A DNA stretch of 64,000 nt from positions 758,146 to 822,145 of the forward strand of contig CP082927.1 of the NCBI GenBank assembly GCA_023038255.1, written 5' to 3'. This DNA comes from Candidatus Peribacteria bacterium. GTDB taxonomy: Bacteria; Patescibacteriota; Gracilibacteria; Peribacterales; Peribacteraceae. Made by a program: the position numbers and the translations under genes. The notes below the pieces were generated by a model. The model did not search any database and was not told the DNA's origin. It worked only from the letters and a program-made list of their open reading frames with translations. The stretch's first letter is position 1; each line of letters starts with the position of its first letter. This document shows positions 14,317 through 58,309 of the stretch, piece after piece.

Positions 14317-15717
14317 ATGCAGTACACTAATCTCTCCACCCGCTTTCTTCTGACAGCTGCTCTTCTTGGCTCCAGTCTTCTGGCTGCCACAAGCGCGTCT
14401 GCAGACGAAAGTTCTGTGTCATCCTCGCCCTCTTTGTCATCCTTGTCTTCTATTGCAACAGACTGGCTGCAAGTGGAAAGCGGAACCGGCATCAATATTC
14501 TTCCGGGAGAAGGAACCATTATCATTGAACAGAAAAACGGCTCCGGCGCAGGCACACTCGGTTCCTGGACTATGATCCAGCCGGACAACAAGCAGATCAG
14601 AGGATCTGGTGCGGTGCAGACGCTCAATAACACATCGGCGGGAACGTATACCGTCTTCACCCATCTGCCGACCGGCGCGAGCGCAACGATCCGCATTTAC
14701 CGCAATAACGAATCTGAAAGCGTTCTTCCGAAGCAGCAGACATCACTCGTGCTCAGAAACGGCGACATCATCCGCGTAGTCATTCACTACACCATTACAC
14801 GATCCGGCATGGTTGCAGTGGATAGTGATCCAATCGGCATGACTTTCACACTTAAAGGACCGAACAATACTGTCTATACCGGCACGACCCCCACATCATT
14901 CACGGGTGTCGCTGAAGGCCAGTACCAGGTGCTCTATGATTCCATTAAAGGCTGTAATATCCCGACATCAAAGAGTTTGCGCCTGGAAGCAGGGAGCCGC
15001 GTATCGTTCACGACGTATATTGCCTGCCCCATGGCGGACAAAATGCGCGAACGCCAGACAGTTCAGGTAAGTGACAAAAACTCCATCACGATCGGCACAG
15101 GTCTGGATGCCATTGTCATCCGCGATGTCACACCGGACGCATGGTTTTCCACGTACGTCGCAAACGTCGTGAAGTACGGCATCCTTGCCGGATACAAAGA
15201 TGCAAACGGCAACGCAACCGGACAGTTCGGTCCGGGAAACAATGTGAATATCGCGGAACTTGCAAAAGCTGCTCACAAAATTGCCGGCATCAGCGCCGAC
15301 GCATTTACAAACGTCAATCCGGAGAACGTTGCCGCACAGGGACAGTGGTTCTCCCCCTTTATTGCCTCCGCAGAAAGCCGCGGCTGGACCATCTACAATT
15401 CTGCAACCATCGATCCCTCCCGTCCTGCCACACGCGGCGAAGTGCTCGTCACATTGCTCCAGGCTCTCGATAAAAAACTCGACTGGCAGAAAGGCACACT
15501 CTTCACAGATGTGACTGCACGCACACCGTATGCCGCAGCAATCGAAACAGCGACAGCGGCAAAAGTTGTCGAAGGTCGCACCGATGCCGATGGAAATGAT
15601 CTGCATCTCTTTGGCCCTCTCGATCCGATCAACCGTGCAGAACTCTCAAAAGTTCTCAGCCGCATGATTGATATTTATAAAACGACATCGTCTTCCTCCA
15701 GTAAATCAACCAAGTAA
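14317..15717 (+). CDS. S-layer homology (SLH) domain surface protein
   Basis: 466 residues. A Sec signal peptide (FLLTAALLGSSLLAATSASA, cut near residue 30) is followed by a Ser-rich linker, beta-rich domains to about residue 240, then SLH repeats from about 270 to 450: WFSTYVANVVKYGILAGYKD...FGPGNNVNIAELAKAA, a second with WFSPFIASAESRGWTIY...RPATRGEVLVTLL, and a third with YAAAIETATAAKVVEGRTD...FGPLDPINRAELSKVL. SLH repeats bind pyruvylated wall polymer. A CsaB-like enzyme is encoded at 27883-28842. TATACT at about 14288 is a likely -10. The 3' end overlaps murC by 12 nt, tail to tail. Confidence 0.9.
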   Translation: MQYTNLSTRFLLTAALLGSSLLAATSASADESSVSSSPSLSSLSSIATDWLQVESGTGINILPGEGTIIIEQKNGSGAGTLGSWTMIQPDNKQIRGSGAVQTLNNTSAGTYTVFTHLPTGASATIRIYRNNESESVLPKQQTSLVLRNGDIIRVVIHYTITRSGMVAVDSDPIGMTFTLKGPNNTVYTGTTPTSFTGVAEGQYQVLYDSIKGCNIPTSKSLRLEAGSRVSFTTYIACPMADKMRERQTVQVSDKNSITIGTGLDAIVIRDVTPDAWFSTYVANVVKYGILAGYKDANGNATGQFGPGNNVNIAELAKAAHKIAGISADAFTNVNPENVAAQGQWFSPFIASAESRGWTIYNSATIDPSRPATRGEVLVTLLQALDKKLDWQKGTLFTDVTARTPYAAAIETATAAKVVEGRTDADGNDLHLFGPLDPINRAELSKVLSRMIDIYKTTSSSSSKSTK

Positions 15718-18881: not shown

Positions 18882-20696
18882 TTACCGCTTTAAGACGCTC
18901 AAAAATGCTTCCTGCGTCAGTGTCACCTTTCCCATTTTCTTCATACGCTTCTTTCCCTTTTTCTGCTTCTCCAAAAGCTTCTTCTTGCGAGACACATCTC
19001 CTCCATACAGGTAACCGGTCACATCTTTGCGCATCGCCCCCACCGTCTCACGCGCCACAACTTTTCCACCAATAGCCGCCTGAATTGCGATTTCAAACAT
19101 TTCCTTTGGAAGCACCTCTTTTAATTTCTTGCAGACAATCATACCGACGTCATGTCCTTCACTTCTGTGGACAATTGTGGAGAGGGCATCAGCAGGTTCT
19201 CCAAGGAGGAGAATCTGCAATTTCACCAGATCCCCTGCTCTGTAGCCAAGCGGCTCGTAGCTCATGGAACCGTATCCTTCGGTTGATGATTTCAGCTTAT
19301 CGAAGAAATCGAGCACGATAGTCTGGAGCGGCACATCAAACCGGAGCAGGCAGCGGCCGGCGTCCAAATATTCGAGTGTGTGGTAAATACCGCGACGATC
19401 CTGAATAAGTGTCATCACCGTTCCGACATCTTCACTGCGGCAGACGATTTCCAGCTGCACCCACGGTTCACGCACTTCTTCAATGTAGGCGGGATCCGGG
19501 AAATCTGCGGGGTTGCTGATACTTGCAACCTGCGGTTCATCGTCTTTGAGCAAACTGGCGCGGACAATCGCTGCAGCCTGTTTGACGTTCAGTTTTACTT
19601 CATAGCGCACGCTAGGCGCCGTCACGATCAGGTCACAATCATACTCACGCTCCAGACGCTCCTGAATAATATCGAGGTGCAGAAGTCCGAGAAATCCGCA
19701 GCGGAAACCGTTTCCGAGTGCGGCGTTCTGTTCCGGCTCGCTGGTCAAAGCGGAATCATTGAGGGACAACTTCTCAATCGCATCACGGAGATCCGGATAT
19801 TGGTCCGCTTCAGACGGGTAGAGGCCGGCAAACACCATCGGCTGGACTTGTTTGTAACCGGGCAGCTGCTGCAGATGCGGTGCAGACCCGATTGTATCTC
19901 CCACTCGCACCTGACGGACATCTTTCAATCCTGTCACCACGTACCCGATCTGTCCTTCGACCAGCTGATCATCGGGAATGAATTTAGGCGAAAAGAAGCC
20001 GACTTCCTGAATCGGGAAACTGCTTTTTGTTCCGAGGAAATGCGCTTGTGTGCCCGCCTTGAGCATTCCTTCAATCACACGGACATAGGCGACGACACCA
20101 CGATACGGATCAACAACAGCATCGAAAATAAGCGCGCGGGTGGTATCGCGGTTGGCCGGCAGAACGGGAGGCGGAATGCGGTCGATGACGGCCTGCAGCA
20201 CTTCAAGAACACCTGTTCCCTCTTTTGCAGAAATCCGGAGAATATCCTCTTTGCTGCATCCAAGCAGCTTCACCACTTCCTCGCTCACGCGCTCGGGGTC
20301 TGCAGCGGGCAGATCGAGTTTGTTCAGCACGGGAATAATTTTAAGGTCATGCTCCATGGCCATCATCAGCACAGCAATCGTCTGCGCCTGGATTCCCTGC
20401 GATGCATCCACAAGCAAAATGGCACCTTCACACGCAGCAAGTGATCTGCTGACTTCGTAGCGGAAGTCGGTGTGACCGGGTGTATCAATCAGGTTGAGCT
20501 GCACGCCGTTATATTCCATACGCACCGGCGTGAGTTTGATGGTAATGCCGCGTTCACGCTCCAGTTCCATCATGTCGAGGGTCTGTTCTTTCATTTCACG
20601 CTTCTGCAGCGTTCCGGTTTTTTCAATCATGCGGTCGCTCAGTGTCGACTTGCCGTGATCGATATGCGCAATGATGCAGAAGTTTCGGATGTCCAT
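18882..20696 (-). CDS. lepA: Elongation factor 4 (LepA)
   Basis: 604 residues, full length. The GTPase front has AHIDHGKST (residues 10-18), the switch region with GITIKL, DTPGHTDF and NKLDLP; EF-G-like domains and the LepA-specific C-terminal domain (GYGSMSYEPLGYRAGDLVKL, later KKLLEKQKKGKKRMK) follow. It back-translocates or rescues stalled ribosomes under stress. Normally co-located with lepB, here it stands apart. Confidence 0.97.
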   Translation of the reverse strand: MDIRNFCIIAHIDHGKSTLSDRMIEKTGTLQKREMKEQTLDMMELERERGITIKLTPVRMEYNGVQLNLIDTPGHTDFRYEVSRSLAACEGAILLVDASQGIQAQTIAVLMMAMEHDLKIIPVLNKLDLPAADPERVSEEVVKLLGCSKEDILRISAKEGTGVLEVLQAVIDRIPPPVLPANRDTTRALIFDAVVDPYRGVVAYVRVIEGMLKAGTQAHFLGTKSSFPIQEVGFFSPKFIPDDQLVEGQIGYVVTGLKDVRQVRVGDTIGSAPHLQQLPGYKQVQPMVFAGLYPSEADQYPDLRDAIEKLSLNDSALTSEPEQNAALGNGFRCGFLGLLHLDIIQERLEREYDCDLIVTAPSVRYEVKLNVKQAAAIVRASLLKDDEPQVASISNPADFPDPAYIEEVREPWVQLEIVCRSEDVGTVMTLIQDRRGIYHTLEYLDAGRCLLRFDVPLQTIVLDFFDKLKSSTEGYGSMSYEPLGYRAGDLVKLQILLLGEPADALSTIVHRSEGHDVGMIVCKKLKEVLPKEMFEIAIQAAIGGKVVARETVGAMRKDVTGYLYGGDVSRKKKLLEKQKKGKKRMKKMGKVTLTQEAFLSVLKR

Positions 20697-20790: not shown

Positions 20791-23700
20791 TTATTTTTTC
20801 AGGCGGTTTGCCTTTTCCAGGGCATCAAGCGGGACAGCAAAGCGGCGGGCATCATCCGGATGGGCTTTCATCCACTCCTCATACGGGATACTGCGGGAAA
20901 TGCTGTTTTGCGGAACATCGTAGACTCTTTTCCCCCGCTCAAGCATACGCGGCATGATGGTCGATATTTCGCTGATGCGCCATTTGTTCCGGTCAGGAGA
21001 ATTGCCATACACAAGGAAGCATTCCACACGGATGAAACTCGAATATTCCACAGAACGCATAACCAAACAATCGGCGTACATGGAATGGACGAATTCTTTG
21101 TTCTGCTCCAGACGTTTCAGCATGTTAATGTTTTCCTCTGCAAACACTCCACGCTGCTCAAATGCCAAAGGCACACTGATCCGCAACTGTTCAAGCACGG
21201 ATGCAGGCAATGGTTTGATGGTCGTTTCCTTCAGCGACCGCTCCATGAGAAAATCACTCATACGTGTGTACACACCCTCCAGATCCTCATAGGTCGCGCG
21301 CTCTCCGGACGCAGCACGCGCTGTAAAAGGTTGCAGCACACGATCAAGCTCACGACCATGGAAATACGCAGCATTCAAGCGGACAAATGTTTTAAGCTTA
21401 TTGAGATCCTCCGTCTGCTCGTCCGTGTGTGATTCTGCGAGATTCAGCCACTGGAAGAAGCTCTGCGTATCGACAAAGGGAACACTCTCAATCACCTTCT
21501 CTGCATAGTCACGGTTTTCCAGAGCGCTGTGTGTCGAGGAACTGATCGCACGCTGGCGTCTGTTGCGATACGCAATTTCCTCCACGAGGCCACGTTCGAC
21601 CTGTGGGGTGACAGGCATTTTTTCGCCACGGATATCCCCGAGCCATTGTGTGCGACCGGTCTCCGGCGGATAGATCCCGAGATGACGGTAAATACTCACA
21701 GATTTTGCGACCTGCTGTGCGAGTGATTTATATTCTTCCCACAAAGGCAGAAGATCGCTGTCGCCGGCAATGGTACGTGATCCGACAGCCCCTCCTTCCA
21801 TATAGGTCCGGATATGACTCAGAGGTCCGCTTCCCAGCGCATTCCCGAGGACGCGGTCGTTGCGCAGGTCCCCGGTATCACTCGTCGCAAGATCCAGCGC
21901 ATTCAGATCCGCTTTTGATTGGATGAGGCCTTTTTGCGCAAGCCCGTACCAGAACGCCTTATCATCTTCGATCGCCTTTAGACGGGAAACCTGAGCGTAC
22001 AAACGCACGCTCATGCGCTCTCCCCAGAGCAGAGGATCTGTGATCTTCTCTTCTTCCCAGAGCTTCTTCCTGATGGGATTCTTTTCGGCAGCAATAGCGG
22101 CATCGACACGTCCGTTCCATGCATCGACCGTTTGATAATAGGATTGATCGAGAACACCTTTCTCATAATCAGGAAGGACACTCTGACGCTTGAAGAAGCT
22201 ATCCATATCCTGCTCCGGATTCAGCGTCACAAGTCCCATCGCCTCAACGGTCTCATACCCCTGTCCGAATGCCGCATCAGCACCGATGAATCCGAGTGCG
22301 GTCATCACCTCCTGTTTCAGTGGAGAATCGGGCCAGAGCTTGGTATCTGCCCAGGTGCTCAGGTCATTGATCTTTTCAGATGCGACAAACGCCAGAATCA
22401 GAGCCACGACAATTTTCACATACGGCACGCCAGGGGTTTTCAGTCCGATCCCCATTCGCGTCAGCATGCTGCCCACCGCTTTGTTACTGAGTCCGCTAAG
22501 CGCGATAAACGACCCGAACTGCACACATGCCTTCAGTTTGTCATCCGATGTATGCATATAATATGCCCAGAGGAGAACCGTTGCCGGGCTTTCGATCGTC
22601 ATCAGCTCAGACCAGAAAGCCGGCCCGATGGGAGACTTGTTGAGAGTGCGGAGCACCGAACCGAGCGATTCCACCGGAATACCTTTGGCTGCAAGCTTCA
22701 GCGACACATCTTTCCAGCCATTGATAATCTTCAGACGCGCCGCAGGCGAAAACAACCGGAGATCTTTTGCGTCCAGTCCAAACAGTTTGTCCGGCCAGCC
22801 GATCGCGCTTTCAAGCACTTCCTCCCCAAGTTCGTTCACCGCAATACCCATATAGAGCGCCCAGGACGAGACCGCCGACGGACGTTCCAGCACTTTCTGT
22901 TCATAGACCTCGCGCTTCATGATGTAACCCACTACTTTGTCTTTCAATGAATCCGTAAAACCATGCAACAGGAAGAGTGGGAGTTTCCGGGACATTTCGA
23001 GACGCGCACGTTCAATCTCTTCATACGCAGTCTGCACAGTGGCATCTGTTTTATTTTCCTGCTTCTTTGCATCCTGCGGCCGTGGCAACGGAGCGATAAT
23101 ATCTGCCAGGAATTGCTGGATTTCCTCATCGGTCATATCTGGCGGAAAACCGAATTCCGCTTTGAAGCGCTCTTTGCCAAATGTTTTGCAGGCAGCTTCA
23201 TACTTTCGTGCATCCTCTAGATACTCAGCAATACGCGTACGGACAGCTTCTGCATCGACAGATGCAGCTTCCTCTGGTGTCCCGATGGCAGCACCGATCT
23301 CCGCAGCAAGCTCACGCCACTCCCCTTCCAGACGCTGCTGCCAGACGTTCAGCTCCACCGGCTCTTCACGCGGAAGACGCGGCGGTCCTGCGAGAATGGT
23401 CCGGACGTCATCCGCAGGAACAGTGAGTGCGGCGGAAGCGGCATTGATTGACATCTTTTCAAGCGCCTGATGTTCCAGACGGTACTGCTGAAGATCTTTG
23501 CTATACGCTGTCAGTAGATCGAGAATCAGTTTTGCGCGCTGCAATGCAGTACCAGGATTGCTCTTTGCAAGTTCCCGAAGCACTACAAGTGACCGTTCCG
23601 TGTCTCCACGCGGGTCCGCCGTGAGTTTTTTCCATTCTCCCGATAACCGGTTCCGCTCTGCTATGTCTTTGCTCTTTGCCGGGACAAATGCAGGAGGAAA

Positions 23701-23847
23701 TGCGGGAGGTTCGATAGCGCTGCTGACATCGCGGATCTGCTTTTCAATCCCCAGAAATTCCGGCTGCAACGCCTCTTTCTCCCGGGAAGCGGCTGGCTTC
23801 TCGGCAGGAGCAGATGCCGCAGAGGGTTTTTCTGTAAGAGGACTCAT
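20791..23847 (-). CDS. Giant unknown protein (1018 residues), last gene of a four-gene operon
   Basis: 1018 residues, not recognised. No signal peptide. The first 70 residues are Ala/Pro/Glu-rich and probably disordered; helical regions with coiled-coil-like charge patterns follow. A central hydrophobic part includes FGSFIALSGLSNKAVGSML and YVKIVVALILAFVASEKI, which could be a membrane hairpin. The C-terminal 400 residues look globular. It begins 21 nt after the 940-residue gene and likely shares its transcript. Possible large membrane-associated scaffold; function unknown. Confidence 0.85.
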   Translation of the reverse strand: MSPLTEKPSAASAPAEKPAASREKEALQPEFLGIEKQIRDVSSAIEPPAFPPAFVPAKSKDIAERNRLSGEWKKLTADPRGDTERSLVVLRELAKSNPGTALQRAKLILDLLTAYSKDLQQYRLEHQALEKMSINAASAALTVPADDVRTILAGPPRLPREEPVELNVWQQRLEGEWRELAAEIGAAIGTPEEAASVDAEAVRTRIAEYLEDARKYEAACKTFGKERFKAEFGFPPDMTDEEIQQFLADIIAPLPRPQDAKKQENKTDATVQTAYEEIERARLEMSRKLPLFLLHGFTDSLKDKVVGYIMKREVYEQKVLERPSAVSSWALYMGIAVNELGEEVLESAIGWPDKLFGLDAKDLRLFSPAARLKIINGWKDVSLKLAAKGIPVESLGSVLRTLNKSPIGPAFWSELMTIESPATVLLWAYYMHTSDDKLKACVQFGSFIALSGLSNKAVGSMLTRMGIGLKTPGVPYVKIVVALILAFVASEKINDLSTWADTKLWPDSPLKQEVMTALGFIGADAAFGQGYETVEAMGLVTLNPEQDMDSFFKRQSVLPDYEKGVLDQSYYQTVDAWNGRVDAAIAAEKNPIRKKLWEEEKITDPLLWGERMSVRLYAQVSRLKAIEDDKAFWYGLAQKGLIQSKADLNALDLATSDTGDLRNDRVLGNALGSGPLSHIRTYMEGGAVGSRTIAGDSDLLPLWEEYKSLAQQVAKSVSIYRHLGIYPPETGRTQWLGDIRGEKMPVTPQVERGLVEEIAYRNRRQRAISSSTHSALENRDYAEKVIESVPFVDTQSFFQWLNLAESHTDEQTEDLNKLKTFVRLNAAYFHGRELDRVLQPFTARAASGERATYEDLEGVYTRMSDFLMERSLKETTIKPLPASVLEQLRISVPLAFEQRGVFAEENINMLKRLEQNKEFVHSMYADCLVMRSVEYSSFIRVECFLVYGNSPDRNKWRISEISTIMPRMLERGKRVYDVPQNSISRSIPYEEWMKAHPDDARRFAVPLDALEKANRLKK

Positions 23848-23868
23848 GCGAACGTTTGACGTATATGT

Positions 23869-26691
23869 TTATTTTCTGAGCTTCAGGCGGATTTCTGTTT
23901 CCAATTCCGCAGATGACTTTGTTTTGCCATCGGATTCGAGCGTAATGCCAAGTTTCCCTGCAAGCGCCTGGGCGTCAGACTCAGAAAGCGTCTTGGATTC
24001 CAGCAACCGCAGATCCTCTGTGGAGAGATTCACCTGCGCCGCAGATTCCGGAAGACTGACATTGGACGATGTATCAAAACTCTTCGGGTTAGCTGGGTTT
24101 CCTTCGAAAGCAGGTTTGGCTGTGCCGCGAAGCACTCTGTTGATGGATGCCTGTGCATCTGCTTCCGACTGTTCGATGGACTGGAGCGCCCTCTGCACTG
24201 CCGCCTCATCTCCCGGCGCAACGGCCAGCAGTTTACGGGTGACGTCATCAATGTCGGTATACATCTGCAATCCCAGCATTTTCTGTGCCCAGGTTGTCGC
24301 GCTACCGGGTTTTGTATAGATCGCTTTTGCGAGCGTATCCAGCGTTTCCCCTCTGTTAATCAGGAATGTTCGCGCCAAACGGATACTTCTGATGCGACTC
24401 GGCAATCTGTAGACGAAGCTCGTGCGGCCTTCGTATTGAGACCGGACTTCGCGCTGCATGTTTTCGAGCTGAGCCATGGTCAGATTCGGATTGTTTTGCT
24501 GGAGAGTGCGGAGCAACGGACCGAGATCTTTCTGCAGCGCAAATGTTCGAATGTGCGGCAGGATCATGCGACTTGCGTACTGCAGATCGACAGCGCCGGC
24601 ACCCATTTGTGACGCTTTCCATGCCGCAGCCACACCACCTGCGGTTGCAATGGCACCCATCACGGACCAGAACAAAGGATCTTTTCCCCAGGCGCGGATA
24701 GCAGATTTCAACCATCCTTCTCCCTGGCCAAATCCTTTTTCCTGGAGCGTCAGGAGCACGTCCTGCATGTCTTCCATCTGCTTCTCACTGAGTCCGTACT
24801 TACTGAGAAGGCTGGCAACTTCCAGGCTCTTGCTTCTGGCAGCCATCGTGAGTTCGGACGACATGGCACCGGTCCACTCTTCCGCAAGCGGCGCATAGCC
24901 GTTTTTGAGGAGTGACAGTACTTTCAGGCGCAACGCAAACGTTCCGACTCCTTTCCCGGTCATCTCTCCGGACTTCAGAATGTAATACAGTTCAAACGCA
25001 TCTTTCACGGTCATATTCCCACCAAGAATAATGTCTTTCAGGGCAGCATCTGTCTTCGGTCCGATCTCGCCGATCAGCTGATCACTGAACCATTCGGTCA
25101 GACCGGTCGACTGGTTCTGCAGTGCATCACGGCAGATTTTGTACGTCTCTTCCGTCTGCGACTCCGTACAGATGGTGCGCAGAATATGGCGCTGTTCATC
25201 CAGAAGGTTTTCCTGGATCACCGGGTCTTCGCGCTCTTTTTTCATATGAGAGACTTTCAGTCCGGCGTGTTTGCGCAGCATAAATTCCTCGACGGTCTGC
25301 ACATCAATAATGTACTGCTTCTGCTCATACTCATTCATGACATCAGACAGAGTCGCCTGCGGATTTGCCTTGCGGGCCTGTTGCAGTTTCTGACCATACG
25401 TCGATGCCGGAATAAGCACCTGCTGTACAGATGCCTTATCCTTCTTTTCTTCAATCGTCTGCTTCACAATCCCCTCAAAACTGTCCATGCTGAGCTTTCC
25501 ACCCGACTGAATAAAACTATCGGCAAGCTTGAGCACCGTTGATTCATTGCCGGCAAGCTCCAGCGCTTCCGTAATAGTCAGACTTTCTACCGGCACAGAT
25601 GCTCCTCTTGCAGCATTCTCAATAGCGGACTGATATTTTCCGATGTACCGCAGAATGAGCTTGGCAGCTGCTGTGTATTCCGGATGATTGTCTGCAGAAT
25701 ATCCACACTCTTTCAGAAAGCGCGTCACAACCGCCTCTCCTGCGGCACTGCGCAGCGAATCGCCTTCTGCTTCAGCAATCGCTGTATACGAGAGCGCCGT
25801 ATCGACAGACAGACGCTTCTGCAGAGCAATGGTCAAAAGGAAATTCGCATCCCCGGCAATACGGGACGGACTCAGTCCGAGGTTTTCTTTCCGGGCGATG
25901 GTGTGCTGCATGGGCAGTGCGACTTTTTCCATATAGGACAAAAGCGCACTCTCACGCGCATTGAGCGGAACGAGGTTGGAAAGGAAGTTCGGAATCTCAT
26001 CCTGATTATTCACTGCATCCTTTGCCGTCATGGCTTTATTGTCGGCCGTACGGCGATACTTCTTCAAAAACTCCGAGCGCTGGGCAAGATACACCGCAAG
26101 ATCGCGGCGCATGGTCACGCGCAGGTTTTCCTCCCCTTTATTCAGCGCATCCAGATATGGCTTTGCTTTCACGGCACTCTCAAATTTGAACGGAGCAAGT
26201 TTATTATGAATCATATCCTTTTTCGTTTTCTCATTGCGGATCGTTACATTCTGCAGAGCAGCGTCAACTGTGGGATCCGGCACCGTTTTATCTGCATTCC
26301 TGTTATGTGTGTTGTTGTAGTCGACAATCTCCTGCAGAAGTTTTTTGGGGCCCATCTCATTGCGCATGAGGAGCTCAATATGCTTGATGACCGTGCGCTG
26401 GGATTCTGCGACCTGCTGACGTTCTGCATAAAATTTTGGGGCCTGCAAACCAAGATCTCTCGGAAGATCCACACGGGGCAACGGCTCCAATGCTACTTTC
26501 ACGGCATTTTTCATCTCCGCTTCCCAGGTAGCCTGTTCCAGACTGTCCGGTTTTTTCGAGAGAAGAAGAAAGCTCGTCCCTTTGTCCTGCAGAGCAGCAC
26601 GTTCTGACTGAAGCAGCTCTGGAGTCGCACCGGGACTCTTCTGCGCTGTCTCGGAGCGGCTGGACGGTGATTCTTTGTGTGTGTTTTGCAT
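23869..26691 (-). CDS. Giant unknown protein (940 residues) with a C-terminal membrane segment
   Basis: 940 residues from ATG 26691; a longer frame to 26736 would overlap the upstream gene by 32 nt. The N-terminal 600 residues are hydrophilic and helical, with segments such as LEKQ/QEK-rich coils. A Gly/Ala-rich hydrophobic stretch (SVMGAIATAGGVAAAWKASQ) around residue 690 could cross the membrane. Near residue 790 RGETLDTLAKAIY resembles the start of a LysM motif, but this is too short to assign. Not recognised. Its size, layout and operon position match the 1018-residue neighbour. Confidence 0.85.
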   Translation of the reverse strand: MQNTHKESPSSRSETAQKSPGATPELLQSERAALQDKGTSFLLLSKKPDSLEQATWEAEMKNAVKVALEPLPRVDLPRDLGLQAPKFYAERQQVAESQRTVIKHIELLMRNEMGPKKLLQEIVDYNNTHNRNADKTVPDPTVDAALQNVTIRNEKTKKDMIHNKLAPFKFESAVKAKPYLDALNKGEENLRVTMRRDLAVYLAQRSEFLKKYRRTADNKAMTAKDAVNNQDEIPNFLSNLVPLNARESALLSYMEKVALPMQHTIARKENLGLSPSRIAGDANFLLTIALQKRLSVDTALSYTAIAEAEGDSLRSAAGEAVVTRFLKECGYSADNHPEYTAAAKLILRYIGKYQSAIENAARGASVPVESLTITEALELAGNESTVLKLADSFIQSGGKLSMDSFEGIVKQTIEEKKDKASVQQVLIPASTYGQKLQQARKANPQATLSDVMNEYEQKQYIIDVQTVEEFMLRKHAGLKVSHMKKEREDPVIQENLLDEQRHILRTICTESQTEETYKICRDALQNQSTGLTEWFSDQLIGEIGPKTDAALKDIILGGNMTVKDAFELYYILKSGEMTGKGVGTFALRLKVLSLLKNGYAPLAEEWTGAMSSELTMAARSKSLEVASLLSKYGLSEKQMEDMQDVLLTLQEKGFGQGEGWLKSAIRAWGKDPLFWSVMGAIATAGGVAAAWKASQMGAGAVDLQYASRMILPHIRTFALQKDLGPLLRTLQQNNPNLTMAQLENMQREVRSQYEGRTSFVYRLPSRIRSIRLARTFLINRGETLDTLAKAIYTKPGSATTWAQKMLGLQMYTDIDDVTRKLLAVAPGDEAAVQRALQSIEQSEADAQASINRVLRGTAKPAFEGNPANPKSFDTSSNVSLPESAAQVNLSTEDLRLLESKTLSESDAQALAGKLGITLESDGKTKSSAELETEIRLKLRK

Positions 26692-26704
26692 AGTCAGAAG
26701 TGGG

Positions 26705-27439
26705 TTATGGCATGTCCGGTAGCGCATCCGGCGCAATGGGTTTCATGGCGGAATTGGCGGCATTATTCACCTCATCAAGGACACCTGAATAGTCCGGCGT
26801 GGGAGCCATTTCCGGTACAGACGGCACAGGTGATCCACCAGTAGCGCCACCCGGGAATGCATCTTTGAGAGCCTTCACTCCTTCTGCAGCCTTGTCTCCG
26901 AGCTCGCCAGCCTTCTCCCCGATCGCTCCTGCAGCTTCTCTGGCAGTTTCTGCTGCAGCGGCAACTTTGTCGCCCATAAACCATTGCATGACAACGTTTT
27001 TAAACTGGTTGTAGAGAGGTGCACCGTAGCCGCTTGCATAGAGCGCAAGACCGCCAAGACCGATCACAACTGCAGCAGTGGTCCACGGATTTCTTTTGAT
27101 TGTCTTCCAAATGCGTCCCGGAACGCTCTTCACATATTCCCAGGTATTCCATTTCTTTTTGATTTCCACCTGACGTGCGACAGACTTCAGATCCAGATAC
27201 ACCCCCTCCGCCTGATTCTCCAGATCCGGACGCTTTGTACGAAGCATTTCTTTGATAGATGGCATCAGATTCGCTCTGCCGTTCACCGCCGTCTCCGCTT
27301 CGTTCAGATAATCCTCATTCAGGCGTTCCTGTAAACTTCTGTGTAAGGTGAGGAGCTCTTTCGGCGGAAGCGTCAGAGGCTTTTCAATGGTCTGTGCACG
27401 GGAGTGAAACCGTTCGATACCAGATTCAAAAGGTGTCAT
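26705..27439 (-). CDS. Unknown protein with one membrane helix
   Basis: 244 residues from ATG 27439; the upstream gene's TAA ends 1 nt before it. Helical cytoplasmic part (residues 1-110), a basic stretch (GRIWKTIKRNPW), one membrane helix (TTAAVVIGLGGLALYASGYG), then an Ala/Glu/Gly-rich amphipathic helix (AAAAETAREAAGAIGEKAGE) and a Pro-rich tail. The likely topology is cytoplasm-in with a 100-residue external tail. Not recognised. Second gene of the operon. Confidence 0.75.
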   Translation of the reverse strand: MTPFESGIERFHSRAQTIEKPLTLPPKELLTLHRSLQERLNEDYLNEAETAVNGRANLMPSIKEMLRTKRPDLENQAEGVYLDLKSVARQVEIKKKWNTWEYVKSVPGRIWKTIKRNPWTTAAVVIGLGGLALYASGYGAPLYNQFKNVVMQWFMGDKVAAAAETAREAAGAIGEKAGELGDKAAEGVKALKDAFPGGATGGSPVPSVPEMAPTPDYSGVLDEVNNAANSAMKPIAPDALPDMP

Positions 27440-27440
27440 G

Positions 27441-27848
27441 TTAGTGATTGGTAACGGAGGAATTAAGTTCGAGATGTTTGTGACGGATTTCGCTGAGAAC
27501 TGCGAGCAGCTCCACATCGTCATCAGCAGATATGTCCGAGAGAACTGACTGGATCATGGCGTCCGTTCCGTGTGCGCCAAGGACGAAGAATAGTTCCGAC
27601 TGCACATCCGGAGAAAGCATGTCGAAAGAAATCAATTCCGGCTTTTCGCCGTTCACAATCCGCTCTGCAAGATTCCGCATTTCCGGGTGGAAGGTGAAAT
27701 CTGCCAGTGAGTAGCGGATCTGCAGTTCGGAGAGCGTCTCATACGACGTACCGGTCTCTTCGACAACAGTCCATCCTTCACGCAAAGATTCCGGAAGAAG
27801 ATTGTACCGTTCCTGTTCTGAATGTGTGAGGTAAATGGTTGTGTGCAT
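27441..27848 (-). CDS. Small acidic unknown protein leading the giant-protein operon
   Basis: 135 residues from ATG 27848; the longer frame upstream runs through the promoter and is rejected. Acidic and helical, ending with ISADDDVELLAVLSEIRHKH. No membrane segment. Not recognised. An excellent promoter (27858-27886) stands 9 nt before the ATG, so this gene defines the 5' end of the four-gene transcript. Confidence 0.7.
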   Translation of the reverse strand: MHTTIYLTHSEQERYNLLPESLREGWTVVEETGTSYETLSELQIRYSLADFTFHPEMRNLAERIVNGEKPELISFDMLSPDVQSELFFVLGAHGTDAMIQSVLSDISADDDVELLAVLSEIRHKHLELNSSVTNH

Positions 27849-27857
27849 ATGGCTATT

Positions 27858-27886
27858 ATTATAGCATTTTTGCCGGCATTGCTCAA
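27858..27886 (-). promoter_or_regulatory. Promoter of the giant-protein operon
   Basis: On the minus strand TTGAGC (27881-27886), 17-nt spacer, TATAAT (27858-27863), then 9 nt to the ATG. One of the best sigma-70-like matches in the window. It overlaps the last 4 nt of the csaB-like gene. Confidence 0.8.
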
Positions 27887-28842
27887 TGTAAACGCATTGC
27901 AGCAGCCAGAGCATCATGACCATTTTTTACCTGACTGAGCAGTGCAGCGGTCGCATCCGGCATCTCTGTATATTTTTGGACCTGCGATAACTTGTCTCCC
28001 GGCTCCTGCGGCAGAACGATTTGCGGTGTACCGGCGGCCAGTGCGGCCAGTGCGCCATGAAAACGTTGTGTCAGAACGAGTGATGACCCCCCGACTGCAT
28101 GCATGAGGTCATCGAGAGTCCGGACTGGGACCACAGTAGACGGCATAGTGAGACTGGTTTGCAATGATTGAGCAGTCGCTTGTTCAGGTGATGAATCCGG
28201 CTGCATCAGGAGGACATTGACGGTATCGATTTCCGGGTGTTTTTTGATGCATTCAAGAGCGGTTTTTTGCAGCAATTCCGACGAGTTATGACGGGGAATT
28301 ATGGTGAACAATTTTTTAGTATTTCTGGAGTACTTTTTCTCTACCATTAGAGAAAAAACAGGGTCAAAAGTTTGAACTAATTTTGTACTCAATTTCCAGG
28401 ATTCCACCCGCTGGAAAGACTCAAGGTCCCGGACGGAAATAAAGACTGCCCGGCGTGCAGTCCAGCGACTCAGCCACTCCCCCATCCGGGTCTTGTATGG
28501 ACCCATTCCCTGGAAGGCTAAAAACACCGGTGTCCGGAAAAAAAGCGCTGTGGCCGCATGCAGACTCCAGATGACACAGGCAACAACAGATTCAATGTCC
28601 GTAAAGAGTGATCCACCACCAAACACCAGTCCATCCGCCCCTGCAATGGCCCGGACAGTCTTCCACCAGGGAGTGAAGAACAAAGACCGGATTCCCGCAG
28701 GTAGACGCGGTAACTCCCCTTTTTTCGGATGTGCTGAAAGAACAACCCAATCGATATCAGGAAAAGACGTCAAAAAGTACTCTTTGAGAGCTTCATCGCC
28801 CAAATTCGCTACGCCGTAATTTCCGACCAGCACAAAACGCAT
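27883..28842 (-). CDS. csaB: Polysaccharide pyruvyl transferase (CsaB-like)
   Basis: 319 residues from ATG 28842, which gives the family start MRFVLVGNYGVANLGDEAL. Other landmarks: LVFGGGSLFTDIES, FLAFQGMGPYKT, SVRDLES and LTQRFHGALAALAAGTPQIV. Enzymes of this family move pyruvate from phosphoenolpyruvate to a sugar; CsaB pyruvylates secondary wall polymer so that SLH domains can bind. A SLH protein is encoded at 14317-15717, supporting that role, though other pyruvylated glycans are possible. TACCAT (28849-28854) is exactly 6 nt before the ATG. Confidence 0.85.
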   Translation of the reverse strand: MRFVLVGNYGVANLGDEALKEYFLTSFPDIDWVVLSAHPKKGELPRLPAGIRSLFFTPWWKTVRAIAGADGLVFGGGSLFTDIESVVACVIWSLHAATALFFRTPVFLAFQGMGPYKTRMGEWLSRWTARRAVFISVRDLESFQRVESWKLSTKLVQTFDPVFSLMVEKKYSRNTKKLFTIIPRHNSSELLQKTALECIKKHPEIDTVNVLLMQPDSSPEQATAQSLQTSLTMPSTVVPVRTLDDLMHAVGGSSLVLTQRFHGALAALAAGTPQIVLPQEPGDKLSQVQKYTEMPDATAALLSQVKNGHDALAAAMRLH

Positions 28843-28940
28843 AAGGGCATGGTAAAGCACAAATCCTAAATTCAAAATCCGAATACAATAAAAATACCAA
28901 ACTCAAGAAAGACGAGAATGTAGCATTCCGAATCGTAACT

Positions 28941-30120: not shown

Positions 30121-30334
30121 GTTCACAAACAGTATTCAGGATTGTAGGGAGAGTGCAAGAAAAGTACTCAATGTTGTGTATAGTATTTGTATACAATTAA
30201 TATGGCTTATTTAAGCCAAAAAATACGTATTTTACCTTTTAGCAAAAACACCATTGAACACAATTTATACTCGCATTTCCTGAGTTTTCATGGTCTGGCA
30301 ACATTTCCACAATCATGGAGGAGTATACAAATCA

Positions 30335-30363
30335 TTGAAGAAAGTCAGAAAAAATGCTACAAT
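30335..30363 (+). promoter_or_regulatory. Promoter of the VirB6-like gene
   Basis: TTGAAG (30335-30340), 17-nt spacer, TACAAT (30358-30363), then 7 nt to ATG 30371. This supports a leaderless start at 30371 and argues against upstream ATGs in the same frame, which lie inside or before the promoter. Confidence 0.75.
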
Positions 30364-30370
30364 GATGGGA

Positions 30371-32146
30371 ATGCCATCACACAAAAATAATCATCGGTTC
30401 GCCTGGCTGTTTCTCGTTTTTTTGGCGGTTTTTTTCCTGCCGGATAATGCTTTCGCACAGGTAGCGGGCGGCGGTGCAACACTCCCGACAGGGATTGAAG
30501 CAACCATTGCAACCATGGTCTCCAAGATGATCGGGTTTATGAACATCCTGATTTGGATTCTGTTTATTTTCCTGAACTTCGTCTTAGATCCGCAGTTTAT
30601 TTTCGATCTGGATAACGGGGAATTCATGGCTGTGCTCAATCAGATCTGGCAGCTCTCCCGCGATCTGATGAATGTCGGGTTTGCACTTATGCTTGTGGGA
30701 ACCGCGATTTATACCATCGTGACCGCTAATAAAGAGTTCGTTACCCAGCATGCGAAGAAATTTATTATGGCGATTGTGCTCGTGAACTTCTCGTGGTTCT
30801 TCCCGCGTGTGATCATCGACATTGCAAACGTCACTACAGCAACCATCTACGGCATCCCCTCTTTATTGATGGACGGAAGCATTTCGAATACGTGTCAGTA
30901 CAAATCGAGTTCCGCAGAGCACCCTGCCTGTACACCGGCCTCAGAATCGACTGTAGAGGCTCCTATATACAACTGTAAATGCCGCGTGGTGACAAATGTG
31001 GATATGTTTATGGACGCAACAGAAGCGGCATCACACACAAAAGCAGATGGTTGGGATTGTCAGGGCGACCTTCTCTGCGTACAGACAAAACCGTGGGCCC
31101 CCAATCTGGTGTCCGGCCATTCGGCTGTGCTGAACGGACTCATCATGAACCATGCGCACCTGCAAACCATGGCAACGGTTCCGGCGGTGAAAAACAGCGA
31201 CAGCATCGCGGAGATGACACAATTCCTCATTGTAGAAGGCATTATTGTTATCATTCATATTGCACTCTTCTTTCCGCTGCTTGCGATGTTCGTCGCATTC
31301 GTCATCCGCATCCCGATCCTCTGGCTGACGATTCCGTTCATGCCGTTTATTTTCCTGAACTATGTGATGTCTGAAAATGAACTCACCGGTATGACCAAGA
31401 AAATCTGGGAGCATTTCCTGAAGGCAGCATTCCTGCCGGCCATGGTTGCTGTTCCGCTCGCTGTTGGCTTCATCCTGGTCAATGCCGGCGCACAACTCTC
31501 CCCCAGTCCGATTGCAGGTATCAAAATCCGCCTTCTGGATGGCGTCAGTAACTACTGGCAGCTTCTCTGGTGGATAATGACACTCGGCGTGTTCTGGGTC
31601 GGTACATTCACGGTTCTTGAGAACGCAGGCGGTCTGTACGCCAAGGTGGCAAGCAGCATCAAGAGCTACGGTGAGGCATGGGGCAAGGTCGCACTCAAAG
31701 CTCCGCTCTCCGTTCCCCTGCCTGGTGTGGGCATGACGCCGCTGAGTATGTTGCGCGCTGTTCATCCGCGTACTATTGATGCGAAGATCAGCGGTGACGA
31801 AGGACTCGCAGGATATGCGAAATATCTGGATGACGTGGCAAAGGGAAATGCAACTATTGATCCCGCCGAGAAGTTTGCGAAGGGTCCTGACGATCAGCTG
31901 ACGCAGCTCCACAAAGATCTTGAGAAGCTTGAAGCGGATTTGAGAGCCAACAAACTGGCAGGCAATGACCCCCTCAAGAAACAGGAGCTCCTGGATGCAT
32001 TCAAGCAGAAAAACGGCGTGGACCTGAGCGGAGACACCGGCAGGAAGCTTGATGACTTTGTGAAGCAGTTGAAGCAGAACGGCGTAAATACCAACAAACA
32101 GGATCGTAACTTCGAACAGCGCGCCACAAATATCAACCAAATCTAA
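30371..32146 (+). CDS. VirB6/TrbL-like polytopic membrane protein
   Basis: 591 residues from the promoter-defined ATG. A signal-type front (FAWLFLVFLAVFFLPDNAFA) is cut or anchored near residue 30. Membrane helices follow at about 45-70, 95-120, 130-155, then a 120-residue external Cys-rich loop (CKCRVV, DCQGDLLCV), and four more helices at about 310-430 (IIVIIHIALFFPLLAMFVAF, ILWLTIPFMPFIFLNYV). The C-terminal 130 residues are charged and helical. The layout resembles the VirB6/TrbL component found next to pilus or secretion genes in CPR bacteria; no VirB4 or other partner is in the window. The next gene is 5 nt away. Confidence 0.6.
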   Translation: MPSHKNNHRFAWLFLVFLAVFFLPDNAFAQVAGGGATLPTGIEATIATMVSKMIGFMNILIWILFIFLNFVLDPQFIFDLDNGEFMAVLNQIWQLSRDLMNVGFALMLVGTAIYTIVTANKEFVTQHAKKFIMAIVLVNFSWFFPRVIIDIANVTTATIYGIPSLLMDGSISNTCQYKSSSAEHPACTPASESTVEAPIYNCKCRVVTNVDMFMDATEAASHTKADGWDCQGDLLCVQTKPWAPNLVSGHSAVLNGLIMNHAHLQTMATVPAVKNSDSIAEMTQFLIVEGIIVIIHIALFFPLLAMFVAFVIRIPILWLTIPFMPFIFLNYVMSENELTGMTKKIWEHFLKAAFLPAMVAVPLAVGFILVNAGAQLSPSPIAGIKIRLLDGVSNYWQLLWWIMTLGVFWVGTFTVLENAGGLYAKVASSIKSYGEAWGKVALKAPLSVPLPGVGMTPLSMLRAVHPRTIDAKISGDEGLAGYAKYLDDVAKGNATIDPAEKFAKGPDDQLTQLHKDLEKLEADLRANKLAGNDPLKKQELLDAFKQKNGVDLSGDTGRKLDDFVKQLKQNGVNTNKQDRNFEQRATNINQI

Positions 32147-32151
32147 TCGCA

Positions 32152-33387
32152 ATGACTCAGAATAATTCTCCAGAAGCGGCACAGGAAGATGTGTCTGCAA
32201 ACAGTGAGACCAAAAACAATCTCAGTGAGCTGCAGGATGCCACCATGGAAAAAATCGCGTTGGATACAGCAGACAAAGCAAACGACCAGGAATGGATTCA
32301 GGAGCAGTACAACAAGAAAGGCAATGCATTCCCGAAGCAGATGAAGCTGGTGGCAGACAGAATGGTTGCAAATCTTCAGCGCACGGAATGGGAATCGCGT
32401 ATGGACATGGCATTCGAGGAGCAGCCGCAGATGCAGTCCAGTCTGAAGTCGATTGTGAAAAAACTCGAAATGGATGTACCGGATACCGAAACCGGTCACT
32501 CACCCTCACATCCGTATCTGGCAAACCATCCGATCTATGTGAAGGGATGGGATCAGGTGGCTGTGCCCCAGTACCGTATGACGCGCGATATCTACTATGA
32601 TATTGATTTCCTGAAACAGGCGCTGCGCATCAAAGGCATCGGACACAATCAGGCAGCGGTCATTCAGGAGCTTCTCGCGTGTCTGGAACGCTATGCCGAG
32701 CACGACGCAGGCCGTCTGGCAAAAGAGCTCATCACCAAAAAACAGACAAACAGCTACACATCGCGCGCCATCAATAAGATGGGCAAAATCACGCTGGCAC
32801 TGGGCTTTGGAGCGGCCACACTCATCGCCGGCACATTGGGTGCTGTCCATATGTACAACAACGGTAAAAAATCGAAAGGAAGCGAAATGATCCCGGCATT
32901 GGGATTTGCAGGCCTCACGATCTTTATTGCCAATCCGTCACTCGCAAAATCCCTCATCGGCAATCAGAAAGAGGGGGCATTGAGAGAACTGCAGAAGTCT
33001 GTGAACAAGCCTGCATTTAAATCTGCAGCCAAGAAATACGATCTGCATGGTGAACCGGGAGAAAACATTGCCACTGTCATGCGCTCGCCTGATGAAGACA
33101 TGCGTGCAAAAATTGACCGCTGCATTCAGGGAACCGCAACCGAAGACGATGTGTCGTCTCTCACAACAGAGGTGGCAAAGTCTGCACTGCCACAGGAACA
33201 GGAAAACATCCGTGCATTCTGGAAAGATGCCGAGTCTGTCGCTGCTATCTCGACCGTCCGTCAGACGCGTGATAAAGATGCCATCGACGTGGAAAATGAC
33301 TTCCTGCGCCTCGGGATGGGCAAATTCTACCGCAAGGCAAAGGATCTGGAAGAAGAGTACAAGACAAACAACGAGATGATCGCCTGA
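32152..33387 (+). CDS. Unknown protein, co-transcribed with the VirB6-like gene
   Basis: 411 residues, not recognised. The N-terminal 200 residues are hydrophilic and helical. Two hydrophobic stretches around residues 215-260 (KITLALGFGAATLIAGTLGAV and MIPALGFAGLTIFIANPSLA) could form a membrane hairpin; the C-terminal 150 residues are charged and helical. This layout (long cytoplasmic helical part around one or two membrane segments) is like the proteins of the 20.8-27.9 kb operon. Start 5 nt after the previous stop. Confidence 0.75.
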   Translation: MTQNNSPEAAQEDVSANSETKNNLSELQDATMEKIALDTADKANDQEWIQEQYNKKGNAFPKQMKLVADRMVANLQRTEWESRMDMAFEEQPQMQSSLKSIVKKLEMDVPDTETGHSPSHPYLANHPIYVKGWDQVAVPQYRMTRDIYYDIDFLKQALRIKGIGHNQAAVIQELLACLERYAEHDAGRLAKELITKKQTNSYTSRAINKMGKITLALGFGAATLIAGTLGAVHMYNNGKKSKGSEMIPALGFAGLTIFIANPSLAKSLIGNQKEGALRELQKSVNKPAFKSAAKKYDLHGEPGENIATVMRSPDEDMRAKIDRCIQGTATEDDVSSLTTEVAKSALPQEQENIRAFWKDAESVAAISTVRQTRDKDAIDVENDFLRLGMGKFYRKAKDLEEEYKTNNEMIA

Positions 33388-55240: not shown

Positions 55241-55738
55241 ATGACAGACGTCTCACCATCCGTCCCGCTGGAACAGCAGACCACGCTCACCTCGTGGCAG
55301 GCACCGGTTCTCCCAAGACATGAACGCACGAAACAGTGGTACATCGTCGGTGGAGTTGCTGTTCTGATTGGAGCAGTGTACGGCATTCTGACTGGCTCCT
55401 GGCCGTTCACGATTGTGATTCTTCTGTGTGGCGCCATGTACTACCTGATGCGCGATCATGTGCCGCCACTCAAAACAATGACACTCACCACAGGAGGTGT
55501 CCTTCTCGAGAAGTCATTCACACGCTGGGAAGATCTCGCGGGATTCTGGATTCTTGAGACCCCGGGCTATACAGAAATTCATTTCGTTCCGAAAGCAAAA
55601 CGCAGCTCCGACATTCTGATCCAGACAAACGGACAGGATCTCACACAATTGCGCATGCTGATCGGACCGTATATTTCGGAGTTAAAAGATAAAAAGGAGA
55701 GTTTACTTGACGCTTTAGTCCGTACCGCTAAACTGTAA
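55241..55738 (+). CDS. Small membrane protein with beta domain
   Basis: 165 residues. Two membrane helices (WYIVGGVAVLIGAVYGIL and FTIVILLCGAMYYLM) are followed by a beta-rich C-domain (MTLTTGGVLLEKSFTRWEDLAGFWIL, TEIHFVPKAKRSSDILI), a layout like a bPH domain. It is a type common in CPR genomes. No known function. It ends directly before the 856-residue gene (TAAATG). Confidence 0.75.
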   Translation: MTDVSPSVPLEQQTTLTSWQAPVLPRHERTKQWYIVGGVAVLIGAVYGILTGSWPFTIVILLCGAMYYLMRDHVPPLKTMTLTTGGVLLEKSFTRWEDLAGFWILETPGYTEIHFVPKAKRSSDILIQTNGQDLTQLRMLIGPYISELKDKKESLLDALVRTAKL

Positions 55739-58309
55739 ATGTTGCCGACGCGAAAGCTCTGGCACAACGCAACCAAACGGACCCCCGAACGGGAGGCCCG
55801 TCTTCTGTCGTTTGCAGAAGATCAGAATCAGAAAAAAGATGATGCTGTTGTTGAAAACAAAGATGCAGATGTGACAGACAAAGACATGGAGGCAGCGGTA
55901 AACAAAGGCACCGTTCTCCCGACGCCGGAACCGGAGAAGACTGTAAAAAAAGGAACGGAAGAAACAAAGGACCAGGTCGGCAAGCTCATGAACGATAAAG
56001 AAAAACAGAAAATGGAAAAGGAAATCATGACGCAGAAATTTGAGGCCATCATCAAAAAAGCGACCGAGAACAGCCAGAGACTGGGTGATCTGAAGACGCG
56101 CATGTCTGATCCGGCTGTGCTTGAAAAAATCGAGAAGTTCTGCCCTCCGGATCAGGTACTCCGCTGGAAGTCTGACCTCAAACTCATTAACCGTGAAGCG
56201 TTTAACACGACCAAAGAAAAAGATTTTGCGACAGCTCTCCAGACATTCTGGAGCGGTGAAGTTGCGCCGCATGATTTTCTGGTCCAGCAGGAAGATTACA
56301 TGAAAACGCTCCCGTATGGTTTCCATGATATTGGTGCAGCAATCGGAAGTCTGACAACCATTCAGGAGGATCAAACCGCCTATCCCCTCACAGAAGAAGA
56401 AGCTGCATCGCAAAGCAGGCCGTATACAGCAACAACAAAAGATGAATGGTTCCTGCTGAATGAATCAGACAGAATCGTCACCATTCAGCGACTCATGCAA
56501 CACGTTCAGGTTGAGGACTGGATGAGCTCCAGAATGAATACGTACGATCAGATGGAGAAATACCTGAAGCAGCAGGAAGACCATGTCGATAAGGTGGAAA
56601 AGCAGATCAAGAAAATTGATGCTGACGCAAAAATTGAAGAACTGGATGCAGATGGCGGCTTTGCACAGATGTTCCATGCCATCCGCTGGGTATCCATCAA
56701 CGATTATCTGAACGGTGTTAGCAAGTACTGGAACGCCGTGAAATCCACCTGGGAAACGCGCGGTGACCGTATCAGTGCGGGTGTCGCGAGAAATATCGGT
56801 CTCGCGATGAAACCGTTCGACATCTTCCCCTTCTACGGACAGGAAGTGGATACCATCCTCGGACAACAGCTCGATGCCAAAGACGGCGAGGAAGAAAAGG
56901 GCATGAAAGAGACACTGGCCGATAACCACGCCAACTGGGAAACAGTCTTCGGAGAAGGTGGTGTGTTCGATATCTGGCGCAAGAAAAATAACCCGAACAA
57001 ACTGCGCGGTATTCTTTCGTGGGCTGCTGAACGCGGCTTCCTCTACGACATTGATGATGATCTGGATAACCATGATCACCCGATTTACGGCGTTCCGGTT
57101 GCCGATATCTGTTCCGACTGGGCCGGTGACGACGCGAAGATTTCCAACTACTTCATCAAGCTGCGTGGTGATAACTCCCACGGACGTGACCACGAAAAGA
57201 AACACGGTCACGACATGGAAAACGACATTGAAAACGTGCCCCGCTTTATCCGTCTTGTGGAACACGAAATGGATGAACATAACCTCTGGGCAGCTGCGGG
57301 TATTGCAGAACGTGCGATGGAACGCGGTCTCGATGGAGCCGTTGCCGCATGGCTCTTTACAACCATTATGTCGAAGCTGCGTGAATATCCGACTCTCCGC
57401 AGAAATACACCGGTCTCCTTCTTCGATATTATCGGTAAATTGAGTATGTATAACACGGCCTTCACAATGGGTTGGGCGAAGAGATACCGTCGTGAACTCA
57501 AGCAATGGGCACTATCCGGAGATCCCAACGGTGCACCCGACGAAAGCATTCTGGATAAAACTGCCATGAAGTACTTCAACATTATTGAGAAAGATATTCT
57601 GGCAAAAGATCCTTCAATTAATGCCAATAGTCACTCCGGTAAACAGCGTCTCAACGAAGTGCTTGCGAGAGTGCTGGCGGGTGGAATTATTGAGTTGCCG
57701 GGAGGTCATATCAATATTTTCGAATCACGGTTCAAGGAATACCGGAAAATGGCGAAAGACACCTTCGCATCTGCTGCAAATCCGCATAAAGAAGATCCGG
57801 ACTTCGCTATTGAAGACACAGAAAAAACGATGCTCCCGGAAGTTACTTTCAAAGAAATTCTTGCCTATACATCCACACGTGAATTCAAAGAGGAAAAATG
57901 GGTTATGCCATTCCTCAGTAACCTCATTTCCATGGAGGAACGTCTCGGAAAAATTCCATCTCTTAGGGACGCACATGCAAACTATTGCGCAGAAATCAGT
58001 GAAAAAATGAACCTGCACTTCTCGTCCTTTATGAAAGACGGCCAGGCCACAAAGCAGCTCTATACCATGGACACCCGCACAGGAAAGCCTGCTCTCGCCA
58101 GCCTTGTTGCAGCAGGATTGCTAAGTTGGAACGTCATGCAAAATGCAAACCCGGAAATCGTGAAACTCCTCACAGAACAGCTTCAGAAATTCTTCAAACC
58201 GTTCTATATGAAGACTGTGGCAGGAGGTGGTGATAAGCCTGTGGCTCTGAAAGACACCCCCATCGCTCCAGCGAAGGCTCCCGAAAAATCCACGACAACA
58301 GGCGCCTGA
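55739..58309 (+). CDS. Giant unknown cytoplasmic protein (856 residues)
   Basis: 856 residues, not recognised. A charged, disordered N-terminus (Lys/Asp/Glu/Asn-rich to about residue 90) is followed by coiled-coil-like helices (MEKYLKQQEDHVDKVEKQIKK) and a long globular part with many Trp and His (ELDADGGFAQMFHAIRWVSI, KKHGHDMENDIENVPRFIRL). No signal peptide or obvious membrane helix. Ends in an Ala/Pro/Lys tail. It shares size, composition and an N-terminal charged linker with the 20.8-27.9 kb proteins, but no alignment is claimed. Confidence 0.8.
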   Translation: MLPTRKLWHNATKRTPEREARLLSFAEDQNQKKDDAVVENKDADVTDKDMEAAVNKGTVLPTPEPEKTVKKGTEETKDQVGKLMNDKEKQKMEKEIMTQKFEAIIKKATENSQRLGDLKTRMSDPAVLEKIEKFCPPDQVLRWKSDLKLINREAFNTTKEKDFATALQTFWSGEVAPHDFLVQQEDYMKTLPYGFHDIGAAIGSLTTIQEDQTAYPLTEEEAASQSRPYTATTKDEWFLLNESDRIVTIQRLMQHVQVEDWMSSRMNTYDQMEKYLKQQEDHVDKVEKQIKKIDADAKIEELDADGGFAQMFHAIRWVSINDYLNGVSKYWNAVKSTWETRGDRISAGVARNIGLAMKPFDIFPFYGQEVDTILGQQLDAKDGEEEKGMKETLADNHANWETVFGEGGVFDIWRKKNNPNKLRGILSWAAERGFLYDIDDDLDNHDHPIYGVPVADICSDWAGDDAKISNYFIKLRGDNSHGRDHEKKHGHDMENDIENVPRFIRLVEHEMDEHNLWAAAGIAERAMERGLDGAVAAWLFTTIMSKLREYPTLRRNTPVSFFDIIGKLSMYNTAFTMGWAKRYRRELKQWALSGDPNGAPDESILDKTAMKYFNIIEKDILAKDPSINANSHSGKQRLNEVLARVLAGGIIELPGGHINIFESRFKEYRKMAKDTFASAANPHKEDPDFAIEDTEKTMLPEVTFKEILAYTSTREFKEEKWVMPFLSNLISMEERLGKIPSLRDAHANYCAEISEKMNLHFSSFMKDGQATKQLYTMDTRTGKPALASLVAAGLLSWNVMQNANPEIVKLLTEQLQKFFKPFYMKTVAGGGDKPVALKDTPIAPAKAPEKSTTTGA

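Follow-up and report, generated by a model that had tools for sequence, protein, structure and literature searches.

A four-gene operon upstream of lepA

The window analysed in this study, a stretch of 64,000 nucleotides, belongs to the closed genome of a member of the Peribacteria comprising 1,239,242 bases (about 1.24 Mb). On its minus strand, it contains four consecutive genes, termed P1 to P4, which encode proteins of 135, 244, 940 and 1018 residues (P1, 27441..27848; P2, 26705..27439; P3, 23869..26691; P4, 20791..23847). The intergenic gaps measure 1, 13 and 21 nucleotides, and the group is separated by 34 nucleotides from the gene upstream and by 94 nucleotides from lepA. The four genes form a real operon, whose coordinates, sizes and tight spacing had been correctly described in the initial annotation, as had the giant size of two of its products, with giants of relatives reaching up to 3052 residues. 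On the upstream side, the operon is flanked by rplS and a conserved gene for a CsaB-like polysaccharide pyruvyl transferase (PSpyr, 27883..28875, minus strand; Pfam PF04230, E 2.6e-24), which is found in 19 of 20 loci at the lepA site, and on the downstream side by the conserved lepA (EF4; 18882..20696, minus strand). The genes divIC and murC are also located among its neighbours. With a G+C content of 0.51–0.54, the operon is similar to its surroundings, and its origin as a foreign island was rejected on this basis.

Several other genes of the window are recorded here as separate observations. Across rplS, at 30290-33387 on the plus strand, a polytopic T4SS-like protein of 618 residues (VirB6-like by eye), which is conserved near the lepA site, is followed by a protein of 411 residues that contains one hydrophobic segment and for which BLAST detects no relative in the loci compared; no family model recognises either of the two. 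Also on the plus strand, a membrane protein of 165 residues (PrgI-like by eye) precedes a protein of 856 residues without a match in NCBIfam (55241-58309), and an exported protein of 466 residues, S-layer (SLH)-like by eye, is encoded at 14317-15717, in the same region as the gene of the CsaB-like pyruvyl transferase.

The promoter initially proposed to drive the operon, a TG-extended TTGAGC-17-TATAAT (27858..27886, minus strand), ends 9 nucleotides before the ATG of P1. It is the best of 9 promoter matches in a scan of 12 kb, where shuffled sequences give 8.3, and the match by itself thus proves little. Stronger support for the proposal comes from a comparison across the upstream regions of P1, whose copies are related and hence do not constitute independent trials: a promoter match of at least 9/12 is found in 27 of 47 regions compared to 2.75% of random segments, and the −10 hexamer ends 6–15 nucleotides before the ATG, most commonly at 8, in 27 of 46 copies compared to 2.0% of random positions. 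On the basis of this comparison, a chance origin of the promoter was rejected. The same placement of the hexamer is found in 1–3 copies each of lepA, rplS, murC and other neighbouring genes and in 10 of 21 copies of PSpyr. Because of the conserved −10 box just before its start, P1 is probably the head of the operon, and the geometry of this box, if the usual spacing of sigma-70 promoters applies, suggests that its mRNA is leaderless. The proximity of a −10 box to the start of PSpyr (window 27849-28935) is an observation in its own right, according to which leaderless starts may be common in the lineage.

A constant pair of proteins followed by a variable giant

The distribution of the family was followed by its marker gene P1, whose profile matches 55 of 74 genomes of the order. 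A version of this profile with 45 rows detects P1 in 34 of the 44 searched genomes of the family and in none of 198 genomes from other families of the class, and the CM module of the giants described below is likewise confined, with one marginal match outside (E 5e-4). The cassette is Peribacteria-restricted and has so far been found in one family only.

In all 45 testable copies of P1, which are those whose downstream DNA is long enough, P1 is followed by a gene for a homologue of P2 at a distance of −50 to +41 nucleotides, as judged by an iterated profile that is built on only 45 proteins and whose weakest members lean on position too. In most copies, a giant of 791–3052 residues follows P2. 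The P1-P2 pair is constant and the giant is variable. At the lepA site, a giant directly precedes lepA in 17 of 20 loci, and the other three (L091, L093 and L097) have kept P1 and P2 without a giant. The P2 of one of these loci (L097:3472-4326) contains an extra C-terminal domain, which appears ExbD/TolR-like by eye and is not supported by Pfam. The trio of P1, P2 and giant is also found at sites other than that of lepA (L067, L068, L070, L075, L077, L078, L083, L088 and L095). L113/G001 shows the full four-gene order of the window again, with P1, P2, an N-type giant, P4, P4' and gyrA in succession, and an N-type giant preceding a P4-type giant is also observed in L022, L024 and L066. The gene order, which the initial annotation had proposed to check, is hence conserved in relatives, and neither of the two findings that it had named as incompatible with its view, homology to a known family or an unconserved order, was obtained. 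A second conserved site of giants (L028, G000:C1:1010000-1029000; L020; L023; L026) is characterized by an HPF-like gene, a PKD-like membrane protein, an ATP-grasp-like gene and proS as neighbours, as assigned by eye; the giants at this site come after proteins of 340–439 residues, and no P1 was seen there. In the window's genome, L028 contains a second P3-type giant of 1482 residues.

The initial claim that none of the four proteins can be recognised was borne out, with no credible match of P1–P4 in Pfam, NCBIfam, PHROGs and PADLOC, where only sub-threshold or unsupported scraps were obtained, and no significant match to PDB sequences for profiles of P1 and of the P3 core, P4 core, CM and N_A modules. 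Searches against Pfam with 45 P1s, with the P2s and with 11 giants from relatives were equally devoid of credible matches, and no relative of P3 or P4 was detected in viral contigs.

P1 is an acidic protein (pI 4.5 in the window, family mean 4.9), for which a model of good quality was obtained from three sequences (pLDDT 88.2, pTM 0.81). The protein is predicted to adopt a small alpha/beta fold, in which two short strands are combined with a pair of long helices at the C-terminus. The best Foldseek match has an E-value of 0.27, and VIA-align gives its best match with the C-terminal helical part of GCPII (Z 6.5, rmsd 3.1 over 84 residues), in the range of common arrangements; the fold matches look like such common helical arrangements, and none is convincing. 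P2 is predicted to be bitopic, with a helical N-terminal part, a single transmembrane segment (residues 122–140; 27020..27076, minus strand) and a Pro/Gly-rich tail. The charge flanking this segment amounts to +3.5 on the preceding and −1.0 on the following side, with the basic flank preceding it in 40 of 45 P2s, thus predicting an N-terminus inside and a tail of about 76 residues outside the cell. The similarity of P2 to DUF883/YqjD, a group of membrane-anchored ribosome-binding proteins, reaches 14.4 bits and stays below the Pfam cut-off of 27. Proteins in which P2 is fused to a giant, which would provide a Rosetta-stone link, were looked for and none were found.

Modules, topology and polymorphism of the giants

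In a single-linkage analysis, 53 giants make up one component that is held together by shared modules, which does not amount to homology of all giants along their full length. The modules include the core of P3 (24286..26067, minus strand), which has eight members and occurs in 8 of 74 genomes, the core of P4 (21505..23400, minus strand), with 10 member proteins in 9 of 74 genomes, NN plus N_A, CM with its motif ADRxFLxxAPAWLLAKI, and CT. Comparisons between module profiles with hhalign revealed no homology, and a kinship of P3 and P4 is thus not demonstrated. The giants are poor in cysteine (0.3%), and no DNA repeat array was found apart from two trivial two-copy hits. An AlphaFold2 model of P4 based on six sequences is poor (pLDDT 57.7, pTM 0.30) and appears mostly helical with a beta-rich C-terminal part (residues 890–985; 20893..21180, minus strand), and fold searches with this low-confidence model gave nothing usable.

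Central hydrophobic segments, as proposed in the initial annotation, are clear in P2 and P4 (residues 471–489; 22381..22437, minus strand) and marginal in P3, the first and N-type giant of the operon (residues 673–691; 24619..24675, minus strand; Kyte-Doolittle mean 1.46). Giants contain hydrophobic segments that come in pairs and enclose a basic loop, and most carry no signal peptide, with a signal-like stretch near the start of the L113 giant recognised by eye. P2 is likely to be associated with the membrane, and the giants probably are as well. In 21 of 22 N-type giants, the stretch behind the hydrophobic segment is basic, with a charge of −0.8 on the N-terminal and +4.8 on the C-terminal flank. 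By the positive-inside rule, these reversed charges place the N-terminal part of about 600 residues outside, which is hard to reconcile with ordinary Sec insertion in proteins that mostly lack a signal peptide. Given this conflict, the membrane segments of the giants may be misread; alternatively, it would be resolved if the giants were inserted monotopically, exported in an unusual way or inserted into another membrane.

The giants are polymorphic. Among lepA-site loci, identity to the window amounts to 75.5% for lepA, 73.5% for the ArsR-like protein, 62% for rplS, 60% for murC, 48% for PSpyr and 31% for P1, and BLAST detects the P2, P3 and P4 of the window in no more than 3, 1 and 1 of the 20 loci, respectively. 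Sister species contain different and often mosaic giants at the same lepA locus, and some species carry several copies of the cassette per genome. In genus g29, where lepA is 81–93% identical, the giants share 23–29% in eight of ten pairs and 40% in one. A common giant of 85% identity was found in the pair G028/G064, where its dS of 0.66 is lower than the values of 1.10–1.40 in rplS, PSpyr, P1, lepA and g233; within the giant, dS decreases to 0.26–0.46 in codons 121–600 compared to 0.5–1.16 in other parts, and it ranges between 1.1 and 2.0 along lepA. From the lower dS of the giant than of its neighbours in this single pair, with values near 1 being imprecise, we infer that giants or parts of them have probably been exchanged between lineages. 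Where alleles are shared, dN/dS values of 0.14 and 0.07 indicate purifying selection and no decay, in line with the initial expectation that these proteins probably matter.

Interpretation as a proposed contact cassette

The replacement of giants in sister species agrees poorly with a conserved housekeeping scaffold and fits better to a role in recognition, attachment or conflict. Of the membrane-bound scaffold or secretion/attachment machine considered in the initial annotation, which had not foreseen giants that are polymorphic, mosaic and replaced at a fixed locus, attachment thus fits better than a conserved scaffold, and a role in secretion is conceivable. We assign a probability of roughly 0.45 to the proposal that P1–P4 constitute a Peribacteria-restricted, polymorphic, envelope-anchored contact cassette. 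P1 would serve as small acidic cytosolic partner or chaperone and P2 as single-pass anchor, with its N-terminal part inside and its Pro/Gly-rich tail outside, and both would form the constant platform. The giants, P3 and P4 in the window and often one fused giant elsewhere, would be mosaics of interchangeable modules that are held at the membrane by their hydrophobic segments. The cassette, which keeps a fixed position flanked by housekeeping genes, would have its giants replaced or recombined between lineages, and its variable part would most likely contact something that itself varies, such as competitors, phages or the cells of a partner or host. In this proposal, we infer the membrane topology, the assembly of P1, P2 and giant into a complex, their exposure at the surface and their role in contact; neither P1–P4 nor the giants were found to have a domain, fold or partner that links them to adhesion, secretion or defence. 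The flank charges of the giants in respect to Sec insertion, the poor model of P4 and the loci L091, L093 and L097, which are devoid of a giant, argue against an envelope-anchored contact function.

Alternatively, P2 could anchor a scaffold or cytoskeleton-like assembly at the cytoplasmic face, where helical giants would lie against the inner leaflet, held by monotopic hydrophobic segments that basic residues flank, and where rapid divergence would reflect the low constraint on helical spacers. The predicted helicity of P4, the scarcity of signal peptides, the basic residues behind the hydrophobic segment of N-type giants and the presence of divIC and murC nearby would be consistent with such an assembly, but we regard it as unlikely in light of sister species that have retained P1 and P2 but whose giants at this site show no similarity that could be detected, the exchange of a giant indicated in one pair and the absence of a giant from the lepA site in some genomes. 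Quite improbable is a cassette for defence against phages or mobile elements with membrane-bound giant effectors that would be diversified by phage pressure. Its polymorphism at a fixed chromosomal site, lateral exchange and the multiple copies in some genomes would suit such a function, and the sole match to known anti-phage systems in PADLOC relates P3 to AbiEii (E 3e-4, 18 bits), but this weak match spans 67 residues and is not supported by any other library, no nuclease, NTPase, NADase or other effector domain was found, and no neighbouring defence gene was recognised. At least as improbable is an export system with P1 as chaperone, P2 as docking protein and the giants as secreted effectors whose hydrophobic hairpins with basic loops would enter the membrane of a target cell, which would agree with a small acidic protein encoded directly upstream, the rarity of signal peptides, the paired hydrophobic segments and the polymorphism, but the cassette shows no link to a secretion ATPase, channel or needle, and the T4SS-like membrane protein encoded across rplS is unrecognised by any family model.

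The proposed contact cassette differs from known systems in several respects. Giant repeat adhesins of the Bap/SiiE type contain long arrays of repeated Ig-like domains, whereas the giants described here have no such array and P4 is predicted to be largely helical. In polymorphic toxin systems, an immunity gene is found directly downstream, whereas at the lepA site the conserved lepA comes next. These systems comprise large polymorphic proteins that are diversified by recombination, with variability residing in the C-terminal toxin domain (PMC3482391). They combine this variable part with a constant N-terminal part for trafficking, whereas N-type and C-type modules are both replaced in the giants; whole giants vary, and no toxin domain was detected with Pfam in P1–P4 or 11 giants from relatives. 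Among CPR bacteria, very large membrane-associated proteins with a proposed role in host contact were described in Vampirococcus lugosii (PMC8080830). Latter resemble the giants in being very large and membrane-linked, but carry WD40, PKD, DUF11, integrin or fibronectin domains, none of which were found by Pfam in P1–P4 or the 11 giants, and no P1-P2 pair was seen in the available passages of that report. The large cysteine-rich exported proteins described in Peribacteria (PMC4736985) stem from the same class of bacteria and are also without assigned function, but mostly contain signal peptides, whereas the giants are cysteine-poor and mostly lack them. An enrichment of huge proteins without COG assignment was reported for Peregrinibacteria (PMC11573180), in a survey that concerns proteins above 5000 residues and in whose available passages no operon or cassette was seen. 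Among open-licence papers, we found no description of a cassette composed of P1, P2 and a giant.

It is possible, although doubtful, that P1, P2 and the giants represent a class of cell-contact apparatus that has not been described before and is limited to Peribacteria. Two constant proteins would serve as a membrane platform to display or deliver interchangeable giant helical proteins, and the locus would bear the record of an arms race of these bacteria with their hosts, competitors or phages. How CPR bacteria contact, recognise and exploit other cells is largely obscure, and functional assignments are lacking for many of their genes. A variable gene that can be read against fixed neighbours offers a route to recognition genes in uncultured lineages, and P1 provides a specific marker for the cassette. 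If its role in contact were true, the cassette would name concrete proteins for localisation in Peribacteria.
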